Assembly: GCA_017620655.1 (NCBI GenBank)
Contig: JAGAUT010000053.1
Span: forward strand, 1-34,658
Length of the DNA stretch: 34,658 nt
Reading direction: 5' to 3'
Source: Clostridia bacterium
Lineage (GTDB): Bacteria > Bacillota > Clostridia > Oscillospirales > CAG-382
Of this stretch, positions 3,504 through 28,192 are shown in pieces (the first letter of the stretch is position 1; the number at the start of each line of letters is the position of its first letter). The notes under the pieces are model-generated. The model searched no databases and had not been told where the DNA came from. It saw nothing but the letters and a program-made list of their open reading frames with translations. Both the position numbers and the translations under genes were made by a program.

Positions 3504-3508
3504 ATAAA

Positions 3509-4102: not shown

Positions 4103-4132
4103 AAAAATTGGGCGGCCACATTGACCACCCAA
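4103..4132 (-). terminator. Intrinsic terminator of murA
   Basis: Read on the minus strand, arms TTGGGTGGTC and GGCCGCCCAA form 10 pairs including two G-U, with loop AATGT, followed by TTTTT at 4107-4103. On the plus strand the same arms would carry A-C mismatches, so the element is directional. Confidence 0.8.
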
Positions 4133-4139
4133 ATTTATA

Positions 4140-5411: not shown

Positions 5412-5460
5412 TAACGCTTTTCCTCCAATAGAAGTTATTTGAAACTCAAACTATGATATC

Positions 5461-5489
5461 AGTATACCATATACGATATTATAATTGAA
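5461..5489 (-). promoter_or_regulatory. Candidate murA promoter
   Basis: On the minus strand TTCAAT (5489-5484), a 17-bp spacer and TATACT (5466-5461), preceded by TGG as an extended -10. The -35 is poor, so the call depends on the -10 and on its position 50 bases before murA. Confidence 0.45.
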
Positions 5490-5513
5490 CAGTTATTTGT
5501 AAATTTATACATA

Positions 5514-6413: not shown

Positions 6414-7791
6414 TATTTTTCACCTCCGAAGTCTCCTCTGAAGAGCATCCCCAGACAGCTGAAAAATTATCTGCATCGGAATTATAATCATAAAACAAAT
6501 TCACTTCAGATGAAGCCGCAACTGATGCATACTTCTGAGGAGAAACAACGACATAAGTATCAAGAGAAGTAAGCTTCATCATTTTGAAGTTAGCATTAAT
6601 AATATAATCATTCTTTATTTCAAATGCAGCATCAAAAGCAGAAGGATAAAGGAACACACCGTTATGCAAATATTTAAAATAGACTTTCGTTGCTCCATCC
6701 GTTTCATTGATATTAATACCAACTATCGAACATGATAATTCATCTTCCTGTATTGTACGGTTAATAATTTTCTTTAAAGCAAACAGCTTATCCGAAAGAG
6801 AAAGTTTCGTACCGGTATCTGAAATATAACCAAGAAACTCATTTAGAGAAATACCGTAGTTTTCAGAAGCTTTATATGAAACCGTTCCGTCATTTCTTAT
6901 AACAAGCTCGCCTGATTCTTCAACGTGATTAACAACCGAACCATTACCTGATACAAAGCTTCTCACAAGATTTTCATTAATCGAAAATATTTCGAACAAC
7001 TCATTTATCCATTTCTGATCAGAATCAACGCCAAAACTTTCAGCAAAAGAGGCAACAGAGCAATTCTCGATGACGAGTGATGATGTAAATACAGGATATA
7101 ACGCTTTAAGCTCAGAATAGTCAAATTTAGTCCAGCCATCACTAACATCATATGAATCATTTACAATTTTGTCAAATCGAATTTCCTGACTAGGAAACAA
7201 TTCTGTAACCTCTCCGCTTTCCGCAATTGCACTGGCATACAAATTGCCTTTCTTATCTGGCAGAAGAAAAATATACTTGAAAAGAAATACCTCATGAAGG
7301 CTTTCATCTCTGTAATTATCCACAACGCACGGCAATACAACTGATGAGGGTAAATCATTATAAAATCCAAGCAACATATAATCGCTACTATACTTTTTCT
7401 TTTCGATATAGTTGCTCAAATCATGCTCGGAATCAAAAGAGACCGTTTTATATGTCCCTTCAAACAAAACACTCAGCGCTTCAGAAATTCGATTTTCAAC
7501 GGATTTTCTTACTTCATACTGAGGCATAACAGCAGTCATTTTATCCCCTGATTTTATGCCAACAAACAGCGGTTCAAGCAGAGTACCGCTATAGTCGTCA
7601 TCGCTGACTCCTGAAGACCTTAGAATCATTCTTGTGTCATTTTCGGATAACGGCGGAAGATTTGAAACTTTTCCGTTCAGTTTTATGTTAATATACATTC
7701 CACAGGAAATAAGCATGACGAAAAACATAATGCCTGCAAGTATTACTTCAACGCCAGACATTATAGATTGCACTTTTTCAGAAAATCTCAT
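6403..7791 (-). CDS. Membrane-anchored extracytoplasmic protein, YycH-like (tentative)
   Basis: 462 residues from the ATG at 7791, chosen because AGGAGG (7799-7804) sits 7 bases upstream; a longer frame to 7824 would include that RBS. The N-terminus MRFSEKVQSIMSGVEVILAGIMFFVMLISCGMYI gives one transmembrane helix at about 16-36. The rest is an acidic extracytoplasmic domain without recognised motifs; its last third (PSAFDAAFEIKNDYIINANFKM) looks like the beta-rich end of YycH-type proteins. It overlaps the YycI-like gene by 11 bases. No clear promoter lies between it and rbfA, so it may be transcribed partly from the rimP operon or from a promoter inside rbfA. Length and order fit YycH followed by YycI; the identity is inference. 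Confidence 0.45.
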   Translation of the reverse strand: MRFSEKVQSIMSGVEVILAGIMFFVMLISCGMYINIKLNGKVSNLPPLSENDTRMILRSSGVSDDDYSGTLLEPLFVGIKSGDKMTAVMPQYEVRKSVENRISEALSVLFEGTYKTVSFDSEHDLSNYIEKKKYSSDYMLLGFYNDLPSSVVLPCVVDNYRDESLHEVFLFKYIFLLPDKKGNLYASAIAESGEVTELFPSQEIRFDKIVNDSYDVSDGWTKFDYSELKALYPVFTSSLVIENCSVASFAESFGVDSDQKWINELFEIFSINENLVRSFVSGNGSVVNHVEESGELVIRNDGTVSYKASENYGISLNEFLGYISDTGTKLSLSDKLFALKKIINRTIQEDELSCSIVGININETDGATKVYFKYLHNGVFLYPSAFDAAFEIKNDYIINANFKMMKLTSLDTYVVVSPQKYASVAASSEVNLFYDYNSDADNFSAVWGCSSEETSEVKNNGN

Positions 7792-7810
7792 GCCTATACC
7801 TCCTTTTATA

Positions 7811-7841
7811 CAAAGCGGTGTCAAATATCGGCACCGCTTTG
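7811..7841 (-). terminator. Hairpin after rbfA, possible weak terminator or RBS-proximal structure
   Basis: A 10-bp perfect stem (CAAAGCGGTG / CACCGCTTTG) with an 11-base loop starts 3 bases after the rbfA stop. On the minus strand the tail is TATAAAAGG, not a T-run, so termination would be weak. The hairpin ends 6 bases before the AGGAGG of the next gene and could also influence its translation. On the plus strand a CTTTT tail follows, but there is no plus-strand gene to end. Confidence 0.45.
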
Positions 7842-7844
7842 CTT

Positions 7845-8198
7845 TTAAATGTTCTTTAAGATTTCTGCAATCTTTGCACCGTGCTCCATACCTTCGTCAT
7901 AAACAAAGTTAAGCTCGGGCGTATTTCTGAGATTAAGTCTTGATGAAAGCTCGTGTCTTATAAATCCTTGAGCAGACTTTATTCCAGCCTTTACTTCCTT
8001 AGGATCGCCGTTCATTACGCTGTAATGAATCTTGCAGTACTTCTGGTCGGCGGTTGTTTCTGTTCTTGTAATGCTTATAAAACACTTTGATACTCTCGGA
8101 TCTTTAACGTCCTTGAGAATATACATAAGCTCTCTTGCAATTTCTTCGTTCACCCTGTCCGTATGGTGAACAATTTTCTTTTTAACAGGCATAATCAA
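7845..8198 (-). CDS. rbfA: Ribosome-binding factor A
   Basis: 117 residues, the usual size. RbfA is a small KH-like protein that binds the 30S subunit during late 16S rRNA maturation. Family-typical segments are [22 protein letters not shown] near the N-terminus, the ISITRTE strand, and [35 protein letters not shown] at the C-terminus. It overlaps infB by 4 bases (ATGA), so it is translationally coupled. It is the last gene of the rimP-nusA-rnpM-ylxQ-infB-rbfA operon; the usual followers nrnA, truB and ribF are absent. Confidence 0.96.
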
Positions 8199-11149
8199 CC
8201 TCTTTTAATTTCTTCCATGATAAAGGCTTCAAGGATATCATTTTCTTTAATATCGTTAAAGCGTTCAAGACCGATACCGCATTCATAGCCTGTAGCAACT
8301 TCCTTAACGTCATCCTTGAAACGTCTGAGAGATGCAATCTTGTCTTCAAATATTACAACACCGTCTCTAACTACTCTTATCTGGCAAGCTCTTGTAATCT
8401 TACCGTCCTGAACGTAAGAACCTGCGATAAAGCCGACACCGGGAACCTTAATGGTCTGACGTACCTGTGCTCTACCCATTACAACTTCCTTATATTCGGG
8501 AGCAAGCATACCGTTGATTGCGGCGTTGATTTCTTCGATACATTCATAGATAACTCTGTAAGTTCTTATATCAACTTCTTGGTCTTCAGCAGAATCTACA
8601 GCCGCCTTGTCGGGTCTTACGTTAAAGCCGACAACTATTGCATTTGAAGCAGAAGCAAGCATTACGTCGTTTTCTGTAATACCGCCTGCAGCCGAGTGAA
8701 TAACCTTAACTCGTACTTCTTCATTAGACAGCTTTTCAAGACTTGATTTAACGGCTTCGGCAGAACCCTGAACGTCAGCCTTGACGATGATTGCAAGTTC
8801 CTTTGTACCTTCCTTAAGCTGGTCAAAGAGAGTGTCGAGAGAAACCTTGGCATTAGCCTTGAAGATTTCTTCCTTAGCCTTCATCTTTCTTTCGTCAACG
8901 AGTGCCTTTGCCATTCTTTCATCGGCAACAACTCTGAATTCGTCACCGCCTTCGGGTGCTTCCGAAAGACCTGTGATTTCAACGGGAACCGAAGGGCCTG
9001 CTTCCTTTACTGTCATGCCCTTATAGTCTGTCATTGCTCGAACGTGTCCTATTGCAGTACCTGCAATTACAACATCGCCTCTGTGAAGTACACCGTGCTG
9101 TACAAGAACAGTAGCAACGGGACCTCTGCCCTTATCAAGCTTTGCTTCAATAACAATACCCTTTGCATCGCACTTGGGATTAGCCTTAAGTTCCTTCATG
9201 TCAGCAACAAGAAGTACCATTTCAAGAAGCTCGTCTATACCCTTATGCTGGATAGCAGAAACGGGAACACAGATAGTATCTCCGCCCCATTCTTCGGGAA
9301 TAAGTTCGTAGTTTGCAAGAGCCTGCTTAACATTATCAATGTTAGCCGAGGGCTTATCTATCTTATTAATTGCAACAATGATGGAAACGCCTGCAGCCTT
9401 TGCGTGGTTGATAGCTTCAACTGTCTGAGGCATGATACCGTCATCGGCAGCAACAACAAGGATTGCAATATCTGTTGCCTGCGCACCTCTGGCTCTCATT
9501 GCGGTAAACGCTTCATGACCGGGGGTGTCGAGGAATGTGATATCTCTATCGTTGATTCGAACACGGTATGCACCGATGTGCTGAGTAATACCGCCGGCTT
9601 CCCCTGCAGTAACATTTGCGTTTCTGATAGCGTCAAGAAGCGAAGTCTTGCCATGGTCAACGTGACCCATTACGCAGACAACAGGGCTTCTTTCAACAAG
9701 GTCAGACTCATTTTCAGCAGCCTGTTCTTCCTCTGTACCAAAGAGCTTTTCTTCGATGGAAAGAACAACTTCTCTTTCGCAGACAATACCCATTTCGTCT
9801 GCAAGAAGGTATGCTGTATCAAAGTCAACAATCTTATTTGCACCAACCGCATCCATAGGAAGTCCCATCATAAGAAGTTTTTTGATTACTTCACCGGTTG
9901 TAATCATAAGTTTAGATGCAAGGTCAGAAATCATAATGTCTTCGCCTACGGTAATGGGACCTGTGAACTTAACGGTAGGAGTAGGTGCCGACTGCTGGCC
10001 TTTATTTTTGCCCTTCTTACCCTTACCGTTAAAGGCAGGCATAAAGTCGCGTGCGGCAGCTTCATTTCTGATATTCTTGCCGCCAACACCTTTCTGGGGT
10101 CCCTGTGCCTTCTTCTGGTTGCCGCCCTTGGGACCTCTTTCGTTGTCAAGAGCATCGGGAACGAGATTGTCAAGTCTTTCATCATACTTAGAAAGGTCAA
10201 CCTCGCTTGTTCTGATGTCAACTACTACCTTTCCTTCTGCGTCTACCTCATGCTCTGCACCTTCAATTCTTGTGCCTGTATAACGACTTCTGATTCTGCC
10301 GTCAGCATCGTATACGGGTTTGAGGCTGGGCTGACGTACCGACTGGTTTTCGTCATCCTTATCTCTGTTCTGATTGAAGGAATTCTTCTGGAACTTAGGC
10401 TTCTGAGGAGCCTGCTTTGGTGTATCGACATTTACAAAGCCATCCTTTGTAAACTTTACGTTAGCATATTTGTCAAAGCGTTCGTTCTTATCAAACTTGG
10501 GGTAATTTTCAACGGGTCTGCCCTCCTGCTTTGCAAGAGCTGCACCCTCTTTTGCTATCTTACCGATCTGCTTTTCAATCTGGCGTTCATTGTAAGACAT
10601 ACCGCCCTGCTGTCCCTGAGCTCTGTCGCCGTAAGGCTTCTTCTCAAAGGGCTTCTTATTGGGATCAAACGGCTTTCTTTCACCAAACTGAGGCTTCTTG
10701 TTGGGATCAAAAGCTTTTCTTTCGCCCTGCTGTCCCTGAGGTCTTTCAACGTAAGGCTTCTTTTCAAAGGGTTTCTTTTCATCCACTTTATTATCAACAG
10801 CCTTAACCTCAGCTTTGACAACGGGCTTCTTTTCAGCCGCGGGAGTTTCTTTTACAGGCTCCTCCGTCTTTGCTGCGGGCTCCTCAGCCTTAGCTTCTAC
10901 TTTAGCTTCAGCCTTTGGCTCTTCCTTCTTGGGTTCCTCCTTCTTAGGAGTGAGATAAGAAGCAATATCGTCAACTGTGCTCTGCATAGTATAGTGCTGA
11001 AGTATAATGCTTGTTTCTTCATATTCAAGTGTCGAAGATGCGGATTTGCCGTCGAAGCCCTTATCCTTCAAAAGCTCAACCAAATCCTTGCTCTTGACAC
11101 CCATATCTTTTGCGAAATTACTGAGTTTTAGTTTTGTATTTATTGGCAT
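8195..11149 (-). CDS. infB: Translation initiation factor IF-2
   Basis: 984 residues, longer than Bacillus IF-2 because of the N-terminal linker. IF-2 is the GTPase that places fMet-tRNA on the 30S subunit and promotes 50S joining. Domains: a first IF2-N helical domain at 1-55; a lysine/glutamate/proline/glutamine-rich linker at about 65-390 with repeated [18 protein letters not shown] and FDPNKKP blocks; a second IF2-N-like domain at about 400-460; then the G domain with G1 GHVDHGKT at about 496, G3 DTPGHE and G4 NKID; then domains II, III and the C-terminal tRNA-binding domain ([20 protein letters not shown]). It starts 1 base after ylxQ ends. Long frames on the opposite strand here are shadows of the biased codons. 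Confidence 0.98.
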
Positions 11150-11150
11150 A

Positions 11151-11531
11151 TTACTGCTGCACCTCCGTATTTACCTTGTGTACTTCATTATAAATTTTAC
11201 GACAAATGTTAACAAAACCCTCATCAAGAATCGCTGCACTTGATGTACCGTTTTTCTTTCCGAGTTTCTGCCCCAAAGTCATCTTGTCTGCATTAACGAA
11301 TATTAGCTCAACTTTGTGAAAACTACAGGAATCAGACAATCGCTTCACTGTGTTTGCCGACAAATCTGATGCAGCAATTACCAGCTTTGCTTTTCTGTTG
11401 CGTATATTTTCAACACACATTTCGGTTCCCATAACACATTTACCTGCACGTTTTGCAAGACCAAAAGCATTAATAATTCTATCTCCGCATATATCAATTT
11501 CATCCGATGTGAATAAAAATTCATTATTCAT
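11151..11531 (-). CDS. ylxQ: L7Ae/L30e-family RNA-binding protein YlxQ
   Basis: 126 residues. This L7Ae-like protein is encoded between rnpM and infB in most Firmicutes; relatives bind kink-turn RNA, but its exact role is unsettled. The fold is recognisable from [47 protein letters not shown], the L7Ae core with the Gly-Lys segment, and then [31 protein letters not shown]. The spacing is tight: 2 bases from rnpM and 1 base from infB. The call relies on domain and operon position together. Confidence 0.93.
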
Positions 11532-11533
11532 TT

Positions 11534-11809
11534 CTATTCCTCCTCAGAGAGACTTGACTTAACTTGCTCAAACACAGAATCAGGAATTTCAACCTCAAGC
11601 GTTCTTTCAAGCCGCTTTGATTTCAATGCCTTTTCAAAACATGAAACTTTAGGACAAATATATGCACCACGACCGGATTTCTTTCCGGTTAAATCGAGCA
11701 AAACATCACCCTCAGGGGTTCGTACCACCCTTATTAGTTCTTTCTTGGGTCTTTTTTCATTACATCCCATGCATTTACGCTCGGGTATTCTCTTAATAGC
11801 GTTAGACAT
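11534..11809 (-). CDS. rnpM: RNase P modulator RnpM (YlxR, DUF448)
   Basis: 91 residues. YlxR proteins are small RNA-binding factors; the Bacillus protein was named RnpM for its effect on RNase P. The diagnostic start RKCMGCNEKRPKKELIRVVR is present, followed by the GRGAYICPKVSCFEKALKSKRLERTL core. AAAAGGTG before the ATG serves as RBS. A 61-base gap separates it from nusA, and I saw no promoter in that gap. It lies at its conserved place between nusA and ylxQ. Confidence 0.94.
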   Translation of the reverse strand: MSNAIKRIPERKCMGCNEKRPKKELIRVVRTPEGDVLLDLTGKKSGRGAYICPKVSCFEKALKSKRLERTLEVEIPDSVFEQVKSSLSEEE

Positions 11810-11870
11810 TTTTCACAGCACCTTTTGGGTGAGTCCTTTCATAACAAAATACACAAAGACTTATGTCAAA

Positions 11871-13214
11871 TTATTCTTCGTCGTTCTTAACAAGCTTAAG
11901 AGCTTCGGCAAGCTTTCCGCCGAAAGATCCTGATGCTTCTTTCTTGCCTTCCATGATATCGTTAAATGCTGCAGCTCTAGCAGCAGATACACTCTTGATA
12001 TCAATCTTATTAAAGCCTGTAAGACGTGCTGCAAGTCTTGCGTTCTGACCTTCCTTGCCGATAGCAAGTGAAAGCTGATCGTCTTCAACAAGAACATAGC
12101 AGCTTCTTTCACCTGTTTCTTTTACAGAAACAACCTGTGCAGGAGAAAGTGATGCTCTGATAAACTCTTCAGCGTTTTCGCTGTATTTGATAATATCAAT
12201 CTTTTCACCTTTGATTTCGGCTGTAATATTGTTCTTTCTGATGCCCTTGGGACCGATACAAGAACCAATAGGATCGACATTATTGTCTCTCGAGTAGACA
12301 GCGATCTTTGTTCTGGAACCTGCTTCTCTCGAAATGGACTTGATAATTACTGTACCATCCTGAATTTCCGGAACTTCAAGTTCAAAGAGACGCTTCACAA
12401 GACCGGGATGCTTTCTTGAAAGAACAATGGAGGGACCCTTTGTTTCCTTCTTGACAACGGTAACATAAACTTTAATCTTATCTCCCTCAACAAGTCTTTC
12501 ACCGGGTATCTGTTCATTCTTGAAAAGAGTAACTTCATTTTTACCAAGCTGAAGAACAGCGTTCCCTGTAACAGGATCAACACGGGAAACGATTGCAGTT
12601 ACTATTTCATCTTTCTTGCCTTCATATTCCTTAACCATGATATCGCGTTCAGCTTCTCTTATACCCTGAATAATAACCTGCTTTGCAGTCTGAGCAGAAA
12701 TTCTTCCGAAGTTCTTTGTCTTTACTTCGATTTCAACAATATCACCGAGGTTATAACCTTTCTTGATTTCACGAGCCTGTTCAAGTGTGATTTCTGTTTT
12801 TTCGTTGAAAACGTGCTTTCTCAATTTCTTAACAACGTTTCCTTCTTCATCATATTCGTACTTAATATTTTCATCGTCTTCTTCATCATAATCATCTTCG
12901 AGATCAAGATCAACGTCTTCGGGTTCCTCATCAAGAACTTCTTCAGGATATTCTTCCATTGATTCAAGTTCTTCGTCTGTAAGTTCTGATCTTTCAGGGA
13001 TTTCATCCCATCCTTCCGGGTCAACAACAGTAAGCTGCTTGTAAACCTTAACATCCTGTTTTACGGGATCAAGAACAATTCTTACATTAGAGCAACCGTT
13101 GTCTTTTTTGAACGCACTAAAAAGTGCAGCTTCAACCTTTGAAAGCATGTATTCCTTAGGAATATTCTTCTGCTTTTCAAGAAGGTCGAGTGCCTTAAAA
13201 AATTCCTTATTCAT
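11871..13214 (-). CDS. nusA: Transcription termination/antitermination factor NusA
   Basis: 447 residues against about 370 in Bacillus. NusA binds RNA polymerase and nascent RNA and aids pausing and intrinsic termination. The N-terminal polymerase-binding domain (MNKEFFKALDLLEKQKNIPKEYMLSKVEAALFSAFKK) is interrupted at about residues 70-137 by a strongly acidic stretch (DVDLDLEDDYDEEDDE is typical) before it resumes at TEITLEQAREI. It continues with NFGRISAQTAKQVI, an S1 domain at about 185-250, and two KH domains to about 420, with IGSCIGPKGIR and LAIGKEGQNARLAARLTG as the GXXG signatures. No C-terminal acidic repeats of the proteobacterial kind are seen. It is co-transcribed with rimP, 43 bases upstream. 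Confidence 0.97.
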   Translation of the reverse strand: MNKEFFKALDLLEKQKNIPKEYMLSKVEAALFSAFKKDNGCSNVRIVLDPVKQDVKVYKQLTVVDPEGWDEIPERSELTDEELESMEEYPEEVLDEEPEDVDLDLEDDYDEEDDENIKYEYDEEGNVVKKLRKHVFNEKTEITLEQAREIKKGYNLGDIVEIEVKTKNFGRISAQTAKQVIIQGIREAERDIMVKEYEGKKDEIVTAIVSRVDPVTGNAVLQLGKNEVTLFKNEQIPGERLVEGDKIKVYVTVVKKETKGPSIVLSRKHPGLVKRLFELEVPEIQDGTVIIKSISREAGSRTKIAVYSRDNNVDPIGSCIGPKGIRKNNITAEIKGEKIDIIKYSENAEEFIRASLSPAQVVSVKETGERSCYVLVEDDQLSLAIGKEGQNARLAARLTGFNKIDIKSVSAARAAAFNDIMEGKKEASGSFGGKLAEALKLVKNDEE

Positions 13215-13973: not shown

Positions 13974-16274
13974 ATGAACAACAACATTTTATCGGTATGT
14001 CCCGAAAACAGTGCATACAAATACAGACCCGAAACCGACGTCCTTTTCAAGATGCCCGACGGCTCTTTCAAGTATTCGGGAATTATTGATTCAACAATCA
14101 GATACATTGAAAATATACAGCTCAAACGCACAGACTTCTGGCGAGCTTTTGTCGAGCAGTTCAGAACATATCCCGACTCAGAAATGAAGGCTTGGCGCGG
14201 TGAATACTGGGGCAAAATGATGAGAGGCGCATGCTTTACATATCAGTACACGCAGGATGAAGAATTGTACTCTATCCTTACCGATACCGTACGCAACCTT
14301 ATGACAACTCAGGATGAACTCGGAAGAATCAGCACATACACAGTCGAAGGCGAATTCAACGGATGGGACATGTGGTGCAGAAAGTATGTACTTTTAGGCT
14401 TCCAATACTTCCTTGACATCTGCAAGGACGATACTCTCAGTGCTGAAATAGTAGAAGTCATGAAAAAGCACGCCGACTATATAATGCAGCACGTCGGTTC
14501 ACCGTCAGAGGGCAAGAAGGAAATCACTTCAACCTCAACTTACTGGTTAGGTCTCAATTCATCCTCAATCCTTGAGCCTTATGTTCGTCTTTACAATCTT
14601 ACAGGCGAGAGAAAGTATCTTGACTTTGCCGGCTACATCGTAAATTGCGGCGGTATTTCCGAGGGCAACATCTTTGAGCTTGCATATGAAAACAAGCTCT
14701 GTCCCTTTGAATACCCCACAACAAAAGCATACGAAATGATGAGTTGCTTTGAAGGACTTTTAGAATACTACAGAGTTACAAAGATCGAAAAGTACAAGAC
14801 AGCGGTTGTAAACTTTGCAAACAAGGTGCTTGAATCAGATATAACAATCATCGGTTGCAGCGGCTGTATTCACGAGCTTTTCGACAACTCTCTGAAAACT
14901 CAGACCGCATCTGACCATCTTGACGTTATGCAGGAAACCTGCGTTTCTGTTACTTGGATGAAGTTCTGCCACCAGATTCTCTCTGTAACAGGCGACTCAC
15001 ACTTTGCAGATGCCATAGAAACCTCAACCTACAACGCACTTTTAGGCTCGGTAAATTCATACGGCTCCACCAACCTCAACGGCTTTGCCTTTGACTCCTA
15101 TGCTCCTTTATATCTTGACATAAGAGCAGTAAGAAGCGGCGGTTATCAGCCAATGGACGGCGACGTTACCGGCTACGGCTGTTGTGCATGTATCGCTTCG
15201 GCAGGCACGGCTCTCATGGGTCTTTCAAGCGTTATGCAGGCTAAGAACGGTCTTTATATGAACCTCTACATTCCCGGCACTGTCAGCGCAAAGACACCGG
15301 ATGGAACTGACATAAATCTCAAGATCGACACAGAATATCCCGTAAAGAACACAGTAAACATCTTTATTCAAAAGGCTACAGGCGAAGAAGAATTTACAAT
15401 CGGTTTCAGAATTCCCTCATGGTGTAAAAACGCCCAAATGACCGTCTGCGGTGAAAAGATTGAAGTCAAGAGCGGTACATATGCAGAAATCTCACGCAAG
15501 TGGAAATGCTGTGACAAGGTTACACTCGTGTTTGATATGCCCATGCTTGCAGTTTTACCTCCTCTCGGCGGATACGACGAAAACTCAAAGTACCTTATCG
15601 CACTTCAGAAGGGTCCGCTTGTTTTTGCAAGGGATGCACGCTTTGGCGAAAAGGTTTACAGTCTTGTTGACATAAAGTACGACGAAAACATGGTTGTAGA
15701 TGCAGTAGAAACACAAATCGGTTTTGACAACCTCTGCGCGTACAAGATACCAAACAAAGACGGCACATACTTCACCGTCTGCGACTTTTCGAGTGCAGGC
15801 AAAACATGGGACGACAAGTCTGTAATGACTGTATGGATGCCCATGAAGAATTACTGGACACCCGACTTTACAAAACCCGTAACCCTCAACAACGGCACAA
15901 ACTTCTTCTCAGTTTTAGAGGATTACCTCACCCCCGTAAGAGGCGACAGAGTAAAAGAAGTATTCACATTAGAGGAAACAGACGGCGGATACTACATCAA
16001 AGCTTCCGACGGAAGATACATTACGGCAGTAAAGCACGAAGCTACCGGCAGATACTACCTTGTTCTTCGTGAAAAAGGCGAAGAAAATCAGGTTTGGAAC
16101 TTTGAACACTTTATTCAGCACAGATACAGAATGGTCTCCGCTACACTTCCCGGTGCTGTTACCCACGCATATGTAAACCACGACATATTTATCTTGGTTG
16201 ACAAGGACAAGAGCGATGTTATGCTTGGAGTAAGCTACACAAACAACGCATTTATAACAATCCGCAACGTATAG
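13974..16274 (+). CDS. GH127-like beta-L-arabinofuranosidase (DUF1680 family)
   Basis: 766 residues, no signal peptide, so probably cytoplasmic. GH127 enzymes release beta-L-arabinofuranose using a zinc-bound cysteine nucleophile. The zinc/catalytic set is visible: E321 and C323 in QETCVSVTW, and the pair C403-C404 in GYGCCACIA, matching the Glu and three Cys of the Bifidobacterium enzyme HypBA1. The N-terminal alpha/alpha barrel shows WDMWCRKYVLLGFQYFLDIC and LEPYVRLYNLTGERKYLDFA. Beta-sandwich parts follow, with IPSWCKNAQMTVCG near 485. The last 110 residues (GGYYIKASDGRYITAV, NQVWNFEHF, YRMVSA) look like a ricin-type beta-trefoil, possibly a sugar-binding module; that is inference. luxS follows 8 bases after the stop. 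Substrate could differ, as related families share this fold. Confidence 0.87.
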   Translation: MNNNILSVCPENSAYKYRPETDVLFKMPDGSFKYSGIIDSTIRYIENIQLKRTDFWRAFVEQFRTYPDSEMKAWRGEYWGKMMRGACFTYQYTQDEELYSILTDTVRNLMTTQDELGRISTYTVEGEFNGWDMWCRKYVLLGFQYFLDICKDDTLSAEIVEVMKKHADYIMQHVGSPSEGKKEITSTSTYWLGLNSSSILEPYVRLYNLTGERKYLDFAGYIVNCGGISEGNIFELAYENKLCPFEYPTTKAYEMMSCFEGLLEYYRVTKIEKYKTAVVNFANKVLESDITIIGCSGCIHELFDNSLKTQTASDHLDVMQETCVSVTWMKFCHQILSVTGDSHFADAIETSTYNALLGSVNSYGSTNLNGFAFDSYAPLYLDIRAVRSGGYQPMDGDVTGYGCCACIASAGTALMGLSSVMQAKNGLYMNLYIPGTVSAKTPDGTDINLKIDTEYPVKNTVNIFIQKATGEEEFTIGFRIPSWCKNAQMTVCGEKIEVKSGTYAEISRKWKCCDKVTLVFDMPMLAVLPPLGGYDENSKYLIALQKGPLVFARDARFGEKVYSLVDIKYDENMVVDAVETQIGFDNLCAYKIPNKDGTYFTVCDFSSAGKTWDDKSVMTVWMPMKNYWTPDFTKPVTLNNGTNFFSVLEDYLTPVRGDRVKEVFTLEETDGGYYIKASDGRYITAVKHEATGRYYLVLREKGEENQVWNFEHFIQHRYRMVSATLPGAVTHAYVNHDIFILVDKDKSDVMLGVSYTNNAFITIRNV

Positions 16275-16282
16275 GTGATTAT

Positions 16283-16735
16283 ATGAAAAAAATAGCTTCA
16301 TTTACGGTTGACCACACGGTACTTGAAACAGGCATATACGTTTCAAGAATTGACGGTGACATTACGACCTACGACCTACGCACAAGAAAGCCCAACGGCA
16401 CGGATTTCATGGACCATTCCACGATGCACACCTTTGAGCATATGTTTGCGACTTATGTCAGAAATTCATCCATTGCAGATGATGTAATCTACTTCGGTCC
16501 CATGGGTTGTCAGACAGGCTTTTATCTCCTTGTGAGAAATGCCGACAACGGCAAGGTGCTTGAAGTAACAAAGAAGGTACTGTCAGACATAATTTCTCAC
16601 GACGGCGACGTTTTCGGAAACTCCGAAATTGAGTGTGGAAACTACAGGACACTTGATTTACAGAAAGCAAAGAGTGAAGCAAAACTTTATCTTGACATTT
16701 TAAATACAAGGGTTCAGACGTTCAAGTACAATTGA
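16283..16735 (+). CDS. luxS: S-ribosylhomocysteine lyase LuxS
   Basis: 150 residues, typical length. LuxS splits S-ribosylhomocysteine into homocysteine and DPD, the precursor of autoinducer 2, in the activated methyl cycle. Metal ligands H49 and H53 (MHTFEHMFA) and C118 (IECGNY) are present, as are the general base E52 and the catalytic cysteine C75 (GPMGCQTGFY). It follows the GH127 gene at 8 bases with TAGGTGATT as RBS and no promoter between, so it is transcribed with a glycosidase. That is an odd partner: pfs/mtnN or methionine genes are usual. Confidence 0.97.
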   Translation: MKKIASFTVDHTVLETGIYVSRIDGDITTYDLRTRKPNGTDFMDHSTMHTFEHMFATYVRNSSIADDVIYFGPMGCQTGFYLLVRNADNGKVLEVTKKVLSDIISHDGDVFGNSEIECGNYRTLDLQKAKSEAKLYLDILNTRVQTFKYN

Positions 16736-16743: not shown

Positions 16744-16777
16744 AAACGCATAGCAGACCGCTATGCGTTTTCTGTTT
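16744..16777. terminator. Bidirectional terminator between luxS and esterase genes
   Basis: An 11-bp perfect stem (AAACGCATAGC / GCTATGCGTTT) with loop AGACC. T-rich tails occur both ways: TCTGTTT on the plus strand and TTGTTTTTG on the minus strand. The minus-strand gene ends 3 bases further on. Confidence 0.88.
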
Positions 16778-16779: not shown

Positions 16780-17409
16780 TTAAAACTCCGTCAGCCATTC
16801 AAGAACACGGCTGTCAAGATACGCCTCATCCCACGAATTGTGGTATACGTTATGGAAAAGCGTAAGTCTTGCGTTTTTGCCGCAGCTAAGAGCAGCATCT
16901 ACCATTTCCAAAGAACAGCTTGTGGGAACGGTTGTGTCGCAGTCTCCGTGGAATGCCCATATGTCTGCCTCGATGAGATTTGCTCTCCAGGGTGTACCGC
17001 CGCCGCAGACGGGGGCAATCTTCTTAAAATACTGCGGCGCAAACATTGCCATTTCCCATGTGCCGTAGCCGCCCATGCTGACACCGGTCATTGAGATTCT
17101 GCTTCTGTCGATTTTATATTCCTTAATCACATATTCGAGGAAATCGACAAGCATATATGTAAGGTTTACCCATGTCACACCTTCCGGACACTGGGGGCAA
17201 ACGGTAATTGCATTAACTTTTATTTTTCCTTCGTGAAGAAATCTCGGTACGGCAATTCTGCGAAGCACCTCATAGTCATGTCCCCTCTCGCCCGCTCCGT
17301 TAAGAAATAAAAGAAGAGGTGACTTTTCTTCACCCTTGAACTGTTCGGGAATGTCTATACTGTAATAAAACTCGCCGAAATAGGGATGGTTATATACTTT
17401 ATTTATCAT
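16780..17409 (-). CDS. Alpha/beta-hydrolase esterase (dienelactone hydrolase/carboxylesterase-like)
   Basis: 209 residues, no signal peptide. The nucleophile motif is GVSMGGYG with S111. Before it lie the oxyanion-type segment LLLFLNGAGERG and the strand NAITVCPQCPEG. The acid is probably D158 in FHGDCDTTVP and the base H190 in VYHNSWDEAY, completing a triad in the order of small polysaccharide-associated esterases. The GTPWRANLIEADIWAFHG stretch is common in such enzymes. The ATG overlaps the stop of the upstream GH123-like gene (ATGA), so it is translationally coupled. Context suggests removal of acyl groups, such as acetyl or feruloyl, from imported oligosaccharides. The substrate is inferred only from context. 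Confidence 0.85.
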   Translation of the reverse strand: MINKVYNHPYFGEFYYSIDIPEQFKGEEKSPLLLFLNGAGERGHDYEVLRRIAVPRFLHEGKIKVNAITVCPQCPEGVTWVNLTYMLVDFLEYVIKEYKIDRSRISMTGVSMGGYGTWEMAMFAPQYFKKIAPVCGGGTPWRANLIEADIWAFHGDCDTTVPTSCSLEMVDAALSCGKNARLTLFHNVYHNSWDEAYLDSRVLEWLTEF

Positions 17410-19037
17410 TTTGAAAGCTCCTTGATCATTTGTCTCATTTTGTCGGCAAGGCTTTGTAAGAACTCTGCATTTCTCGGGTATTCCTTAAATGTCAGGTTCA
17501 TGCCTGCTTCTTCATCGATAAGCTTTACAACGGCTTCTTTACCGATATATTTTTCAAGTGTTCTGCAAATCTGAATATCCTCTATAGCTTCCTTGAAAAC
17601 AAGTGCCCTTATTGAAGGATAAGCACCGTTCTTTGACGGATAAACACTCGCCGCATCACCCGACGGGAACATATAACTTGACGACTGCGAAACATAGGGG
17701 TTTATATCAAACATTGAGCCTGAAACATAGGTAAAATTATATCCCCAATGCAAAAATCCGTCAAAACCGTATTTATACATCTGAAGACCGATAATTCTGT
17801 TACGGTACGAGGGCATAAACAGAAGCCTGTTGCTGACCTTATCCCAGTCACCGCAACAGTAGTAGCACCACTTCTCTTCGAAATCCTTATTGATAAAGTC
17901 TTCAATGTGAGCAATTTCCGCAACGGCAACGTCCATAAGTCCCTTTTCAACAAAGTCAACCTCGGAAAGTGCATCCATTAGAGGTCTGCCTTCAAACAGA
18001 GGCTTTATCTGCTTGTTTGCGTATTCATAGATGTCGATATTATTCTTGTTGGGCTCATCGGAAATATGGAAGTAGCACTTATCAAATACACCCTTATCCT
18101 TAAGGAAAGAAGTAAGTGCAGGAACAAAGGCTTTGAGAAAATCTACATATTCCTCGGTATCAGCACGCATTGACGAATCGAATATATACTTTCTTTCGCC
18201 GTCAACTTCAGCTTCAATATTTATGCACCATTCTGCTCCGCCTGCATGATAAAGGTGGGATATTTCAAAATACTGCATACCGCATTTGAGCGCAAGGTCG
18301 ATATATTTGCCGAGTCTGTCAAATCCGAAAGAATAAGTGCCGTTTGTTACGGTAATGTCCGTAAGCGAACAGTCGGGGCGTTTTACATTAAAGCCGCGGT
18401 CTGTATCGAGATTTAAAGGAAGCACGGGAGTCAGCACCATATTGATGCCCGTTTCCTTAGCAAGAAGCATATAATTTTCAATAAGCTTCCAATGTTCCTC
18501 AGAATACATGGCAACATTATGACAGGACGCAATACAGTCGGGATGGAACCACTGGGTATATTTAAGGGTATTTTCCTCAACAACTTCGTCAACAATCTCA
18601 ATTTTTAAAGATGCGGAATCCTCTCCGAAGTATACGGTAAAATCATATTCGCCTGCTTTAAAATCTTCAGGCACCTTTACATTTACCCACATACATGAGC
18701 CGTATTTTGATGCCGAATAAAATCCGTTCTGATCGCAAAGCGGAATAAGAATATCGGGCACAATTCCGGGTTTATCTGTGATAACATCCTCATCATTAAA
18801 CCAGATAAAATCAATAATCGTATCCTTAACTTGATAGAGCGTGGAAAAATCAGAAAGAGCACTTTCGACTCTTACAGGCAGAGTTGCTCTGAGATCCACC
18901 TTTACATAAACCTGAAAATTGATGCTTTCGCCTTTGAGGGCAGTAAGCTTTGTTACTCCGAGATTTGAAACATCGTCGCCAAGACGCACTTTGTCAAGGC
19001 TTGATACTATTTTCATTTGTGCGAGGTTTGTATCCAT
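17406..19037 (-). CDS. GH123-like glycosidase (DUF4091), paralogue A
   Basis: 543 residues from ATG 19037, which has AAGGAG (19044-19049) 6 bases upstream; a longer frame to 19082 has none. The N-terminal 170 residues are a beta-sandwich-like region (LTALKGESINFQVYV, WVNVKVPEDFKAGEYDFTVYF), followed by a TIM-barrel-like domain. The barrel contains FHISDEP with adjacent D327-E328; GH123 beta-N-acetylgalactosaminidases use such an Asp-Glu pair for substrate-assisted catalysis. The C-terminal DUF4091 part has GFLHWGYN, PSGDAASVYP and SIRALVFKEAIEDIQICRTLE. There is no export signal, so imported substrates are likely. It is the third of three tandem paralogues. The true sugar is unknown; amino-sugar specificity is inferred from family resemblance. 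Confidence 0.82.
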   Translation of the reverse strand: MDTNLAQMKIVSSLDKVRLGDDVSNLGVTKLTALKGESINFQVYVKVDLRATLPVRVESALSDFSTLYQVKDTIIDFIWFNDEDVITDKPGIVPDILIPLCDQNGFYSASKYGSCMWVNVKVPEDFKAGEYDFTVYFGEDSASLKIEIVDEVVEENTLKYTQWFHPDCIASCHNVAMYSEEHWKLIENYMLLAKETGINMVLTPVLPLNLDTDRGFNVKRPDCSLTDITVTNGTYSFGFDRLGKYIDLALKCGMQYFEISHLYHAGGAEWCINIEAEVDGERKYIFDSSMRADTEEYVDFLKAFVPALTSFLKDKGVFDKCYFHISDEPNKNNIDIYEYANKQIKPLFEGRPLMDALSEVDFVEKGLMDVAVAEIAHIEDFINKDFEEKWCYYCCGDWDKVSNRLLFMPSYRNRIIGLQMYKYGFDGFLHWGYNFTYVSGSMFDINPYVSQSSSYMFPSGDAASVYPSKNGAYPSIRALVFKEAIEDIQICRTLEKYIGKEAVVKLIDEEAGMNLTFKEYPRNAEFLQSLADKMRQMIKELSK

Positions 19038-19053
19038 AATTTTCTCCTTAAAA

Positions 19054-19073
19054 GCAAGGCGGCACAAGCCGCC
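19054..19073 (-). terminator. GC-rich hairpin between GH123-like paralogues B and A
   Basis: On the minus strand GGCGGC-TTGT-GCCGCC is followed by TTGCTTTTA, immediately before the AAGGAG of paralogue A. The short stem and T-rich tail fit a weak intergenic terminator or an RNA processing/stabilising hairpin within the operon. Confidence 0.45.
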
Positions 19074-19082
19074 CATACTCAT

Positions 19083-20729
19083 TTACTTTGCTGAATATTT
19101 TGCAATCATTTCCTTCATCTTTGTGATAAGATTCGGGATAAATTCTGCGTTTCGCGGATATTCAAAAAAGGTTAAATTCATTCCTGCTTCGTCATCAATA
19201 AGCTTTATAACTGCTTCTTTACCGACAAATTCTTCAAGCTTTTGACAGATTTGTATATCTTCAAGCGCATCCTTGAAAACAAGTGCACGTATAGACGGCA
19301 GGGCTCCGTTATCACCCGGATATACCGAGAATGGGTCGCCCGACGGATAACAAAAGTTACCGGAGGTTGATACAAAAGGGTTATACTTATAGTAAGAACA
19401 GCCGCAATAGTAAAAATTAAAGCCCCAATGCAAAAAGCCGTTAAAGCCGTATTTATACATCTGAAGTCCGAGGATTCTGTCGCGGTAAAGGGGCATATTT
19501 AAAAATCTGTTAGTGCAGTCAAGGTAGTTTCCGCAGCAATAGTAACACCATTTTTACGAAAGTTCAATGCCCTCAAACTCTTTAAAGCAGGCTCTGTCAA
19601 TATCCTGAACGGGAGCATCCACAAGTCCTCGTAAGTAATAAGAGGAGTTGGAGATGGCATCAATGGTCTTTCCGCCTTCAAGAAGAGGTCTTATATAGCT
19701 GTTAGCATATTCATAGTAGTGAATAATCTCTTCAACAGGCTCATCCGAAATATGAAAGTAGCACTTTTCAAATATTCCCTTATTCTTTAAATATCTGACA
19801 ACGGCAGGTACAAAGTTCTTTAAAAACTCGACGTATTCGGGAATATCTCCCTTTTTAGTCATATTGAAGACAATCTTTCTTTCGCCGTCAACAACCATTT
19901 CAACCTGATTACACAACTCAGCGCCTCTCGGATGGAAAAGATGTGATATTTCAAAATACTCCATACCGTTTTTGAGCGCCATATCAACAAACCTGTCAAG
20001 TCTTGAAAAGCCGAAGCTGTATACACCGTTATCCAGGTTAATATCAACAAGCTGGCAGACAGGGCGGAAAGAGTTTTCTCCCCAAGTATCAAGGTCATAG
20101 GACAGAATAGGTGTAAGAATCATATTTATGCCGAGTCTTCTTGCCATAACCATAAAACTATCAATCAATTCCCAATGCCTTTCGCTGTACATGGGAAGAT
20201 TATAATAATCGGCAATGCTGTCAACATGAAACCACTGGGTAAACTTTACTGTCTGCTTTGGAAGAAGTGCATCAATGACACTCAACTTCAGCGTCACGCT
20301 GTTATCCCAGTAAGAAATTTTGATATCATACTCCCCTGCTTCTATGTCATCGGGAAGTCTGACATTTACCCACATAGTATTTCCGAAGCGAGTTGCGCTG
20401 AAGTATCCGTCAATATCACTAATAGGAATAAGAAGGTCGGGCATAATGCCGGGCTTATCGGTGATAATATCATTATCCGTCTGCCATATATAATCCATGT
20501 TGACACTGCGTACCTCATACAAAGTAATATACTCCGAAAGGTCACTTTCAAGCACCGGCTTCATCGTCTGCTTGTCGGGCATCTCAAAGTAAATCTGAAA
20601 GTTGACATTTTCGCCCTTGAGTGCCGTAAGAGATGAAATTTCATAATCCCTCAAATCGTCTTTATCACGAATTTTATCAAGACTTGAAATAATCCGCATC
20701 TTTGCTTTTTTATCTGAAATATTATCCAT
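19083..20729 (-). pseudogene. GH123-like glycosidase (DUF4091), paralogue B, interrupted by an in-frame TAA
   Basis: The reading frame matches paralogues A and C from end to end (548 sense codons), but codon 392 is TAA (19554-19556). The upstream part gives 391 residues with LTALKGENVNFQIYF, a TIM-barrel-like region and FHISDEP (D329-E330). Downstream, in the same frame, come KWCYYCCGNYLDCTNRFLNMPLYRDRILG and the normal DUF4091 end. Paralogue A has DFEEKWCYYCC at the break, so one base change of a Glu or Lys codon explains the stop; there is no frameshift. The 391-residue product would lack GFLHWG and the C-terminal 156 residues. Reinitiation at ATG 19496 could yield a separate 137-residue fragment. 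The start has only a weak RBS, 23 bases after paralogue C. A recent pseudogene, a sequencing error or a recoded stop are possible. Confidence 0.8.
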
Positions 20730-20752
20730 TACAATACCATCTGCTATTCAAA

Positions 20753-22429
20753 TTATTTTGAAGCGTATTGCGCAATCATTTCCTTCATCTTGTTCATAAG
20801 ACTTGGAATATAGTCGCTGTTTCTTGGATAGTCAAAGAAAGTAACATTCATTCCTGCTTCTTCATCTATCATCTTGATAACGGCTTCTTTACCGATATAC
20901 TTTTCAAGTGTCTTACATACGTCAACATCCTGAAGTGCCTCTTTGAAAATAATAGCTCTCATAGAAGGAACGGGTCCTTTTTCCATTGGATATACTCTGA
21001 AAGCGTCACCCGAGGGAAAAGCCTTATCGGCAGAGGATGTCATATAAGGATTGATAAGATAACGGGACACCTGGCTGTTATAATAGTTAAAGCCCCAGTT
21101 AAGGAAACCGACAAGATTGAACTTATATATCTGAAGACCGATAATTCTGTTTCTGTATCCGGGCATAGCAAGGAAGTTGTTGCTTACCTTATCCCATTGA
21201 CTGCAGCAGTAGTAGCCCCATCTGTTTTCAATGTCTCGGCTGAGAAAATCGGGCATATGATTGATGGAAACAACGGGAAGCTTTGTAAGACCTCTGTCAT
21301 AATACTCAACCCTGCTCATGGCATCCATCATTCGTTCTTCTCCTACAATGGGTGCAAGAATGTCTCTTCCGAACTGATATGCCTCGAGGTGGCCGTCGTA
21401 AGGCTCGTCGGAGATGTGGAAGAAGCAGTTATCGAACACTTCTTTAGACTTTAGGAACTTAACGAGTGCAGGAAGCATCTGGCGGAGGAAATTGCCGTAT
21501 TCGGGGTCGGTTGACTTTACACGGGTATCGAACATATAGTCCTCAACACCGTTTTCCTTTATCTTGATGTTGGCTGTGTACTGAAGTCCCCACTGGGAGA
21601 AGAGATGTGCCATTTCAAAGTATTCAATGCCGCAACGCTTGCACATGTCAATCCATCTGTCAAGAAGTGAGAAGTCAAAGTAATACTTGTCGCCGCACTT
21701 TTCTATTTTAAGAAGCTGAACGCATACTCTCTTAAGTCCTGTTTCAGTATCAAGAGGAGGTGTGATAATGGGAGTAAGAATCATGTTAATGCCCACTTCT
21801 CTTGCAAGCTTTACATACTTTTCAATGAGTTCCCAATGCTCTTCGGAATAAACTTCAACATTGTGTGCCGTTGCAATACAGTCGGCATACAACCACTGGG
21901 TAAAGATTGTGGACTGGGAAGGAAGTTTTGCAGGAAGAACCTCGATTTCAAAGTTCTTTTCAATCACATCGCTTCTGTCAAGGTTACTTTCCATTCTGAT
22001 TGTAATGGGATATGTGCCTGCTTTCATATATGAGGGCACTTTTACTTCAATCCAGAGAGAAGTTACTGTATTTGAAATTGCCATTCTGCCGTTCTGCATA
22101 TCAAGGGGTACAAGAATATCGGGAACAATACCCGGCCCTGTCATAATAACGTCGTCATCGTGAGGAACAACACAGTCGGCAACTGCATCCTTTATGCAGT
22201 AAGCATTGATATAGTCCTTTAAGGGTGAATCGACAAACACATATGTATCAGCCTTATAAGGAGTATAAGGATTATTTGGGTCGGGTTTTTGTGTAAAGAT
22301 ACCGCACACCTGATACGAATAGTTTTCGCCTGCAAGCACCTTTGCAGAGTTTACTTCATTAAGTGCCATAAGTTCAGGCACGCTTCTGACCTTTTCAAGG
22401 CTTGAAATATTTTTAAGAAGAATATCCAT
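20753..22429 (-). CDS. GH123-like glycosidase (DUF4091), paralogue C
   Basis: 558 residues from ATG 22429, with GGAGG (22438-22442) 8 bases upstream; the longer frame to 22447 would start inside that RBS. It has the same layout as paralogue A: an N-terminal beta-sandwich-like region (LAGENYSYQVCG, WIEVKVPSYMKAGTYPITI), a barrel with FHISDEP (D341-E342), then GYYCCSQWDKVSN, GFLNWGFNYYNS, PSGDAFRVYP and SMRAIIFKEALQDVDVCKTLEKYIGKEAVIKMIDEEAGM. No signal peptide. It is the first gene of the four-gene operon C-B-A-esterase and the most diverged at its N-terminus, carrying an extra insert (TQKPDPNNPYTPYKADTY). The family is clear; the substrate is not. Confidence 0.82.
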   Translation of the reverse strand: MDILLKNISSLEKVRSVPELMALNEVNSAKVLAGENYSYQVCGIFTQKPDPNNPYTPYKADTYVFVDSPLKDYINAYCIKDAVADCVVPHDDDVIMTGPGIVPDILVPLDMQNGRMAISNTVTSLWIEVKVPSYMKAGTYPITIRMESNLDRSDVIEKNFEIEVLPAKLPSQSTIFTQWLYADCIATAHNVEVYSEEHWELIEKYVKLAREVGINMILTPIITPPLDTETGLKRVCVQLLKIEKCGDKYYFDFSLLDRWIDMCKRCGIEYFEMAHLFSQWGLQYTANIKIKENGVEDYMFDTRVKSTDPEYGNFLRQMLPALVKFLKSKEVFDNCFFHISDEPYDGHLEAYQFGRDILAPIVGEERMMDAMSRVEYYDRGLTKLPVVSINHMPDFLSRDIENRWGYYCCSQWDKVSNNFLAMPGYRNRIIGLQIYKFNLVGFLNWGFNYYNSQVSRYLINPYMTSSADKAFPSGDAFRVYPMEKGPVPSMRAIIFKEALQDVDVCKTLEKYIGKEAVIKMIDEEAGMNVTFFDYPRNSDYIPSLMNKMKEMIAQYASK

Positions 22430-22466: not shown

Positions 22467-22495
22467 ATTTTACCATATAGGTGTATTTTTTGCAA
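22467..22495 (-). promoter_or_regulatory. Promoter of the GH123-like operon
   Basis: On the minus strand TTGCAA (22495-22490), a 17-bp spacer and TAAAAT (22472-22467) with TGG before it. It is 38 bases upstream of the paralogue C ATG. An alternative -10, TATAAT, five bases further downstream has no -35 at the right distance. Confidence 0.6.
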
Positions 22496-22603: not shown

Positions 22604-23314
22604 ATGGCTCTTTACAGAATTGCTGACCTTAACATAAAAATCAATCATAAGCACGATTATCTTACAAAGCTGTGCAGAAACTACCTCCACGAGAATCAGG
22701 ATGCAGAAATAGATTTTGAAGTATCTGCCAGCCCCGACGACTACGACAAGGACAAGGAATGTCTCGAAGGCTATTCCGACGGGTATCTTGAATCAATTTC
22801 GGTTTACAGGCAGATAGCGAAGAAGCTTCTGGAATACGACGGAATCATTCTTCATGCGGCAGTTATTTCGGTTGACGGCAAGGCTTATGCCTTCTCCGCA
22901 CCCAGCGGCACGGGAAAATCAACCCATATCCGTCTTTGGAAAGAGGCATTCGGCGACAAAGTGAAGATTGTCAATGGTGACAAACCGCTTATCCGATACA
23001 TTGACGGAAAGCTTTATGCATACGGCACTCCCTGGTGCGGTAAAGAAGGCTATAATGCCAATACCAAGGCTGAGCTTTATTCAATCTGCTTTATTTCAAG
23101 AGCAAAGGAAAACAGCATTGAAAGAATTGACCCGAACACGGCCCTTCCCAGAATTTTCACCCAGCTTCTTTTGCCCGATAGCGAAGCGCAGACAGACAAA
23201 TTCTTCAGTATGCTGAATGTAATTTTTGACAGGGTCAAATTCTACAGTCTCGGCTGTAATATGGATATACAGGCGGCACACGTTGCCTATGAGGGTATGA
23301 AAAGCAATGATTAA
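22604..23314 (+). CDS. HPr kinase/PEP carboxykinase-like P-loop protein
   Basis: 236 residues. The P-loop is SAPSGTGKSTHIRLW with K105 and S106, and the following acidic site is IVNGDKPLIRY (D126; relatives usually have NDDKP). GTPWCGKEGYNAN near 140-152 and the IERIDPNTAL segment are also typical. This matches the HPr-kinase C-terminal-like family often found beside PqqD-like proteins and S24/S26 peptidases in Firmicutes. Some relatives phosphorylate lasso peptides, so the target may be a peptide rather than HPr. True HprK is larger, with an N-terminal domain that is missing here. The next gene overlaps it by 8 bases. No PqqD or precursor gene is seen in the window. The family is fairly sure; the substrate is unknown. 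Confidence 0.8.
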   Translation: MALYRIADLNIKINHKHDYLTKLCRNYLHENQDAEIDFEVSASPDDYDKDKECLEGYSDGYLESISVYRQIAKKLLEYDGIILHAAVISVDGKAYAFSAPSGTGKSTHIRLWKEAFGDKVKIVNGDKPLIRYIDGKLYAYGTPWCGKEGYNANTKAELYSICFISRAKENSIERIDPNTALPRIFTQLLLPDSEAQTDKFFSMLNVIFDRVKFYSLGCNMDIQAAHVAYEGMKSND

Positions 23315-23768
23315 TTTATCAAACAGACCTAAAATGGAAGAAGTCTATCCGTTTATTGAAGCATCAATAAAGGAAGGTGGTCAGTTTGTCCTTTATCCCA
23401 GAGGCACAAGCATGAATCCCACCATATATGAAGGTAAAGACTGCGTTGTTCTGACAGAACTGAAAGAACCAAAACAGTACGATATTGTTTTATACAAACG
23501 GTTAAGCGGTCAGTTTGTTCTGCACCGTATAATGAAGGTCAAAAACGGAAACTATACTATGTGCGGAGACAATCAGTACATTTTCGAAAAAGGCATAAAG
23601 CGTGACCAGATTCTTGCAGTTGTAGAAGAAATCAGAAAAGATGACGGCAGAATTTTTGACAAGAACAAAATTTACGCTGACGGAAAATGTTTCCACAGTA
23701 GTTTCAAGAAGAAACTTCAGAGAATCAGGCATTACCTGAGAAGAATAATTAAAGGTGAAAAGAATTGA
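23307..23768 (+). CDS. S24/S26-family signal-peptidase-like protein
   Basis: 153 residues. The serine box is LYPRGTSMNPTI with S35. A second box, YDIVLYKRLSGQFVLHRIMKV, has H73 where bacterial leader peptidases have lysine; the third is MCGDNQ with D88. A Ser-His-Asp set is the SipW/ER type rather than the Ser-Lys LepB type. Unlike membrane signal peptidases, no transmembrane helix is visible at either end; the C-terminus is very basic (KKKLQRIRHYLRRIIKGEKN). It overlaps the kinase-like gene by 8 bases and the next gene by 4 (TTGA). The arrangement suggests processing of a cytosolic or membrane-surface peptide, possibly together with the kinase-like protein; the target is unknown. Confidence 0.78.
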   Translation: MINLSNRPKMEEVYPFIEASIKEGGQFVLYPRGTSMNPTIYEGKDCVVLTELKEPKQYDIVLYKRLSGQFVLHRIMKVKNGNYTMCGDNQYIFEKGIKRDQILAVVEEIRKDDGRIFDKNKIYADGKCFHSSFKKKLQRIRHYLRRIIKGEKN

Positions 23769-27655: not shown

Positions 27656-28192
27656 TTAATAGTTTTCAGCGTGAACTTCAAAGTATGACTTGGGATGAGC
27701 GCATGTGGGGCAAATTTCAGGAGCTTTGGTACCAACAACGATATGTCCGCAGTTGCGGCATTCCCATACCTTTATTTCACTCTTTTCAAATACAGCCGCA
27801 GTTTCTACGTTTTTAAGAAGAGCTCTGTATCTTTCTTCATGCTGCTTTTCAATTGCAGCAACAAGTCTGAACTTTGCAGCAAGCTCCTTGAAGCCTTCCT
27901 TTTCCGCAGTTTCAGCAAAGCCGGCATACATGTCAGTCCATTCATAGTTTTCACCGGCAGCAGCTTCAGCGAGGTTGTGAGCTGTATCGCCAATACCTTC
28001 AAGTTCCTTGAACCAAAGCTTTGCGTGTTCCTTTTCGTTATCGGCTGTCTTTAAAAAGAGTGCCGAAATCTGTTCGTAGCCTTCCTTCTTTGCAACAGAA
28101 GCAAAATATGTGTACTTATTTCTTGCCTGGGATTCACCGGCAAATGCAGCTTCAAGATTCTTTTCTGTCTGTGTACCAGAATATTTACTCAT
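27656..28192 (-). CDS. rbr: Rubrerythrin 2
   Basis: 178 residues, the same length and domain order as rubrerythrin 1 at 3509-4045. Diiron ligands: E20 ([10 protein letters not shown]), E53 and H56 (DNEKEH), E115 and H118 (IEKQHEER). FeS4 cysteines: C145, C148, C161 and C164. Its codon use is more biased than that of copy 1 and it has a perfect consensus promoter and AAGGAGG (28201-28207), so it is probably the major, highly expressed peroxidase-type rubrerythrin. pspC and the alkD-like gene follow closely, which would link oxidative and DNA-damage protection in one transcript. Confidence 0.96.

Follow-up and report, generated by a model that had tools for sequence, protein, structure and literature searches.

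Members of four new groups of glycoside hydrolase family 123 (GH123) were assayed and solved by Sumida et al. in 2024, and the same paper reports that CAZy enlarged the family and that these groups are now subfamilies (PMC11087588). In these enzymes, the DUF4091 domain is a structural pillar, the Asp-Glu pair serves substrate-assisted catalysis, and nine residues are conserved over all GH123 groups (D95, W115, D327, E328, Y392, G427, W431, Y466, and R478 in NgaLy). Group 4 members have a closed pocket and release single N-acetylgalactosamine (GalNAc) residues. In the Group 4 enzyme NgaP2, Trp298 and its neighbour hydrogen-bond GalNAc, and in monosaccharide-releasing enzymes the -2 subsite is closed by contacts on the Trp298 side together with two loops (PMC11087588). 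We analysed the 34,658-nucleotide contig JAGAUT010000053.1 (hereafter, the window) from an Oscillospiraceae gut bacterium, whose minus strand carries three GH123 genes in tandem, named C, B, and A, followed by an esterase gene. With moderate confidence, we propose that the whole is best explained as a cytoplasmic pair of Group 4 GH123 enzymes, accompanied by a third copy that has decayed and by an esterase co-translated with A, in which C would be an ordinary enzyme and A an enzyme with a re-shaped pocket.

Results

Family and placement of the GH123 genes

The unit reads C, B, A, and esterase on the minus strand and ends in a terminator-like hairpin. Its four genes are as follows:

20753 to 22429, minus strand: gene C, Group 4 GH123 with the canonical pocket motif FSQWG, 558 amino acids; PF13320 at 337 bits; NgaP2 E = 3.5e-117; ATG start with GGAGG upstream.
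19083 to 20729, minus strand: gene B, decayed GH123 paralogue with the pocket motif FHPRG; PF13320 in two pieces of 166 and 81 bits; in-frame TAA; no Shine-Dalgarno match; sister of A in the tree.
17406 to 19037, minus strand: gene A, Group 4 GH123 with an altered glycone pocket, 543 amino acids; PF13320 at 299 bits; NgaP2 E = 1e-103; model with a template modeling (TM) score of 0.93 to 8k2m; ratio of nonsynonymous to synonymous substitution (dN/dS) 0.12 to 0.14.
16780 to 17409, minus strand: alpha/beta-hydrolase esterase, 209 amino acids, with Ser111-Asp158-His190.

The original prediction had described three cytoplasmic paralogues sharing the FHISDEP Asp-Glu pair of GH123, in a DUF4091 family held to be poorly characterised. 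The assignment was borne out, since A, B, and C all carry FHISDEP at the conserved barrel position and score far above the curated cut-off of PF13320 (GH123_cat, formerly DUF4091; 23.1 bits), and they are the only GH123_cat genes in the whole 2.2-Mb genome, through which the search went one family at a time. None of the proteins of the unit has a hydrophobic N-terminus, in agreement with a cytoplasmic location. The family itself is, on the contrary, already characterised, with structures, mutants, and activities published in 2024 (PMC11087588). The solved proteins closest to A and C are the Group 4 enzymes NgaP2 and NgaLy, and the likeness to NgaP2 is far above chance. By alignment, the nine cross-group residues are present in A (D95, W117, D327, E328, Y392/393, G427, W431, Y466, and R477) and have their equivalents in C.

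All tree placements given here come from a quick tree, in which A, B, and C fall, as GH123 members, in the clade of NgaP2 and NgaLy, apart from NgaDssm and NaNga (Shimodaira-Hasegawa-like approximate likelihood ratio test [SH-aLRT], 98), and in which A and B are sisters (SH-aLRT, 99) next to the clade holding C. As judged from this placement, A is a Group 4 member by descent and not by its pocket. Hydrolysis of beta-GalNAc with retention is predicted for A and C from their family. Tandem GH123 copies recur in the order; the tandem pair of another genome of the same genus (G001) was rejected as an orthologous array, its copies forming a separate clade.

Altered glycone pocket of A

The pocket was compared across 133 Group 4 proteins, mostly from Clostridia, in NgaP2 numbering (chain number minus 3, which fits W196, D244, W298, and F489 exactly). 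The features of A that bear on the pocket are as follows:

18240 to 18245, minus strand: Ala265-Gly266, replacing the near-invariant Gln297-Trp298.
18366 to 18368, minus strand: Ser224, replacing the otherwise invariant Gln255.
18381 to 18407, minus strand: beta2 loop DTDRGFNVK, with two extra residues.
18054 to 18059, minus strand: catalytic pair Asp327-Glu328, by alignment.

Gln297, Trp298, and Gln255 are found in 130, 129, and 131 of the 133 proteins, respectively, Glu360 in all of them, and the motif Asp in 132. Only four proteins are without Trp298: A (YHAGG), its orthologue in a congeneric genome (YHAGG), B (FHPRG), and the third copy of an unrelated triplet (FSQGG, with D244N). The first three of these belong to a single clade, so that the four amount to two losses of Trp298, perhaps three, all inside tandem arrays. 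Over the five glycone pocket residues (W196, D244, Q297, W298, and F489), C has them all, while A shows Q297A and W298G and B shows Q297P and W298R. The congeneric genome (G002), whose contig matches SVRI01000004.1 of Oscillospiraceae isolate SIG639, carries an A orthologue in which Gln297, Trp298, and Gln255 are likewise all broken. A literature search for that isolate returned nothing. Altogether, A departs from 8 of 46 near-invariant columns, with the same eight replacements in its orthologue, against a mean of 0.28 for the other proteins.

The AlphaFold model of A (mean predicted local distance difference test [pLDDT], 87.7) superposes on NgaP2 8k2m, which places the Asp-Glu pair in a GH123-type barrel as had been expected; residues 212 to 215, in the beta2 loop, are its sole internal segment with a pLDDT below 50. 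Both species have the identical altered pocket, and A evolves between them at the low dN/dS given above, so that the change, as read from these sequences, is not decay, and A is under purifying selection.

One explanation would be plain dosage, with A and C both ordinary exo-beta-N-acetylgalactosaminidases and the pocket changes of A arising by near-neutral drift after duplication. The retention by A of the catalytic pair, Trp196, Asp244, and the nine universal residues agrees with it, as does the recurrence of tandem GH123 copies in the order. We nevertheless regard it as unlikely, given that the same eight near-invariant replacements are fixed in both species and that the amino acid difference between them is 0 to 5% over barrel codons 180 to 480 and 18 to 42% in the first 180 codons. 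A could also be a non-catalytic or nearly inactive paralogue kept for sugar binding or regulation, since it has lost two residues whose NgaP2 counterparts form hydrogen bonds to the sugar; with Asp-Glu and the remaining conserved residues of the active site intact and the barrel under purifying selection, this seems very unlikely.

We rather favour the view that the pocket of A is re-shaped, probably opened, and that A probably cuts a different or decorated sugar, because the replaced sugar-binding residues are otherwise almost never changed. A new specificity, previously suggested for the whole set, is thus probable for A only and not for C, which keeps residues 255, 297, and 298.

Two observations stand beside this comparison. 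Position 297 is Gln in the 8k2l chain, and PMC11087588 prints D297 as a substrate-binding residue. The unrelated triplet mentioned above is a separate tandem GH123 array in another family of the order (L127/L147, G241:C58, about 54200 to 59250), and its third copy, with Trp298 replaced by Gly and Asp244 by Asn, is a parallel case of a pocket-altered array copy.

Decay and history of B

The features of B and of its surroundings that bear on its history are as follows:

19554 to 19556, minus strand: TAA at codon 392 of B, a single stop in an otherwise open frame.
20772 to 20791, minus strand: 20-nucleotide direct repeat AAGATGAAGGAAATGATTGC, copy in the 3' end of C.
19102 to 19121, minus strand: exact copy of this repeat in the 3' end of B.

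The stop, known from a metagenome assembly, falls before the YYCC, GFLHWG, and VYP elements. A frameshift was ruled out, the frame being continuous with this one TAA only. Thus, of the tandem triplication first described, the three minus-strand paralogues stand, and only A and C are intact: the array is made of two intact genes and one decayed copy. A tandem GH123 pair elsewhere (L082, 6670 to 10090) has a seemingly frameshifted first copy, so that the decay of one copy is not unique to the window.

The locus of the congeneric genome reads C, A, and esterase, with no B, at identities to the window of 97%, 89%, and 96%, respectively. The two repeat copies bound the stretch that is absent there, and the sequence following C in that genome resembles the one following B in the window, as expected if the repeats had recombined and B had been deleted in the process. 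A and B share 54% identity with saturated synonymous change, and their split predates that of the two species; B is therefore ruled out as a recent duplicate of A, and the sister placement of A and B beside the C clade also argues that B is old. Hence, B was probably lost in the congeneric genome, or could alternatively have been gained horizontally.

Coupled esterase and expression signals

The remaining features of the unit are as follows:

17406 to 17409, minus strand: four-nucleotide ATGA overlap of the A stop and the esterase start, a sign of translational coupling.
16744 to 16770, minus strand: terminator-like hairpin that closes the unit and can also be read from the side of luxS.
22467 to 22495, minus strand: weakly supported promoter candidate (TTGCAA-17-TAAAAT) preceding C; promoter-like matches occur across the region at about chance level.
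19057 to 19074, minus strand: hairpin in the B-A interval; the C-A interval of the congeneric genome has an equivalent one.

Shine-Dalgarno matches precede C, A, and the esterase gene, B being without one. We place the start of A at 19037, with AGGAG upstream, the longer open reading frame from 19082 being mechanical.

The announced coupling of A to a Ser-Asp-His esterase was confirmed: the congeneric genome has the same C-A-esterase order and the same ATGA overlap, and Ser111, Asp158, and His190 are invariant across 11 homologues. The esterase model has a pLDDT of 95.6, and its nearest structures are 3doh and LC-Est1 (3wyd); a literature search on LC-Est1 returned no paper on its activity. 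The esterase was rejected as a general GH123 partner, as it adjoins GH123 only in this genus among the loci compared. This one co-translated gene, adjacent to GH123 in a single genus, weakly suggests an ester-decorated substrate.

The hairpin upstream of A occurs in both species (about 8706 to 8726 in the congeneric locus, L033), its stem being kept by paired changes (GGCGGC/GCCGCC versus GGCGGTA/TACCGCC), and may determine how strongly A and the esterase are expressed compared with C.

Amino-sugar neighbours of related genes

An amino-sugar role is supported by a relative in the C clade (L076), where GH3, Gfo/Idh, NagB-like, NagA-like, and GH123 genes follow one another. This run (2501 to 12222, in a metagenome-assembled genome from roe deer rectum) also holds genes for a beta-lactamase-fold hydrolase and for the choloylglycine-hydrolase family, and is a good place to seek the natural substrate. 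The neighbours in another clade member (L077) are a GDSL protein and a beta-galactosidase. The source genome has two nagA genes, one of them beside a NagB-like gene, both on other contigs than the unit. Neither genome had a match to the GH112 phosphorylase, but the control genomes gave none either, so that its absence is not shown.

GH127-like gene and other neighbours

A further gene lies outside the unit:

13974 to 16274, plus strand: GH127-like gene, with PF07944 (E = 8.3e-31) and PF20736 (E = 1.3e-20) as catalytic and middle domains.

The original prediction had this enzyme, GH123, and the esterase jointly degrade an imported, ester-decorated oligosaccharide of amino sugar and arabinofuranose. 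The gene is indeed present close by, on the strand opposite to the unit and converging on the esterase gene. In the congeneric genome, by contrast, contig C22 carries luxS and GH127 (89% identical) close to nusA, and the GH123 unit is on contig C31; moreover, the terminator-like hairpin separates the GH127 side from the unit. GH127 was thus ruled out by synteny as part of the unit, its conserved partner being luxS, and the arabinofuranose part of the pathway falls with the missing linkage, which leaves the joint pathway extremely unlikely. In both species, the GH127-like gene is directly upstream of luxS, near nusA (13974 to 16735 in the window; 8602 to 11588 in L145), a conserved and unexplained association between the genes for a sugar hydrolase and for S-ribosylhomocysteine lyase.

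In the congeneric genome, the gene adjoining the GH123-esterase unit (L033, 11139 to 12923) encodes a serpin that carries S-layer homology domains and has a hydrophobic N-terminus. In the window, an S24-type peptidase gene (23307 to 23768) is 43% identical to its positional counterpart in that genome, for neighbours at 87 to 99%, possibly by allele replacement. Two similar proteins of the window (3509 to 4045 and 27656 to 28192) both hold a 15-residue string and look rubrerythrin-like by eye.

Discussion

Our best reading of C is that of a predicted ordinary cytoplasmic exo-enzyme, an exo-acting beta-N-acetylgalactosaminidase that would trim terminal beta-GalNAc by substrate-assisted catalysis through its Asp-Glu pair. 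In A, fold and catalytic pair are retained while the Gln-Trp wall and the conserved Gln are gone and the beta2 loop is longer; the change of Gln-Trp to Ala-Gly, together with this loop, should open or re-shape that side of the pocket and leave the catalytic pair in place. A would then most likely accept a beta-linked N-acetylhexosamine (beta-HexNAc) substituted on its non-reducing side (glycosylated or acylated), or release an oligosaccharide instead of GalNAc. The esterase would probably take an acyl group off the same oligosaccharide, presumably imported, and the freed HexNAc could enter a NagA/NagB-type pathway encoded elsewhere in the genome.

Several points weigh against this proposal. 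No transporter gene was identified within the window, and the restriction of the esterase-GH123 adjacency to one genus gives little backing to a shared substrate. C itself departs from three near-invariant columns (P304, G319, and W320), none of them at 255, 297, or 298, and may not be fully ordinary; since C shares changes at these positions, some of the divergence predates A. Lastly, the loss of Gln-Trp could lower or abolish the activity of A instead of shifting it.

More tentatively, and at somewhat less than even chances, we suggest that A is an opened-pocket Group 4 GH123 of undescribed specificity, which releases an oligosaccharide or a beta-HexNAc that is O-acylated or carries some other substituent and acts in succession with the co-translated deacylase, and that tandem GH123 arrays, the G241 triplet included, repeatedly yield pocket-altered copies. 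So far, loops and residues on the -2 side have served to explain whether a GH123 enzyme releases mono- or oligosaccharides. A offers a naturally occurring change of this region on a Group 4 framework, and its paralogue C, in the same operon, keeps the residues, which makes the structural rule directly testable; A may also yield an enzyme for decorated beta-GalNAc glycans.

Compared with the described systems, A has the same fold, Asp-Glu pair, Trp196, Asp244, length, and domain order as NgaP2 (8k2l/8k2m), the monosaccharide-releasing beta-N-acetylgalactosaminidase of Paenibacillus sp. TS12, and C has Gln-Trp in common with it as well. Unlike NgaP2, A has neither Gln297-Trp298 nor Gln255, and its loop is longer by two residues, at 35% identity in the structural alignment. 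NgaLy of Lacticaseibacillus yichunensis (8k2n, Group 4) resembles A in fold and in conserved structural and catalytic residues, but A differs from it in the pocket as it does from NgaP2, at 29% identity. NgaDssm (8k2j, Group 3), which releases oligosaccharides and monosaccharides and whose cleft is open to the -2 site (PMC11087588), is like A in having no Gln-Trp pair at the aligned place, and unlike A in the tree, where A lies within the Group 4 clade. The coupled esterase, finally, has the alpha/beta-hydrolase core and the Ser-Asp-His triad in common with the EstA-type thermostable esterase 3doh and the C-terminal domain of LC-Est1 (TM by query length, 0.87 and about 0.77, respectively), and differs from both as a stand-alone protein of 209 residues with no export signal, at about 30% identity.

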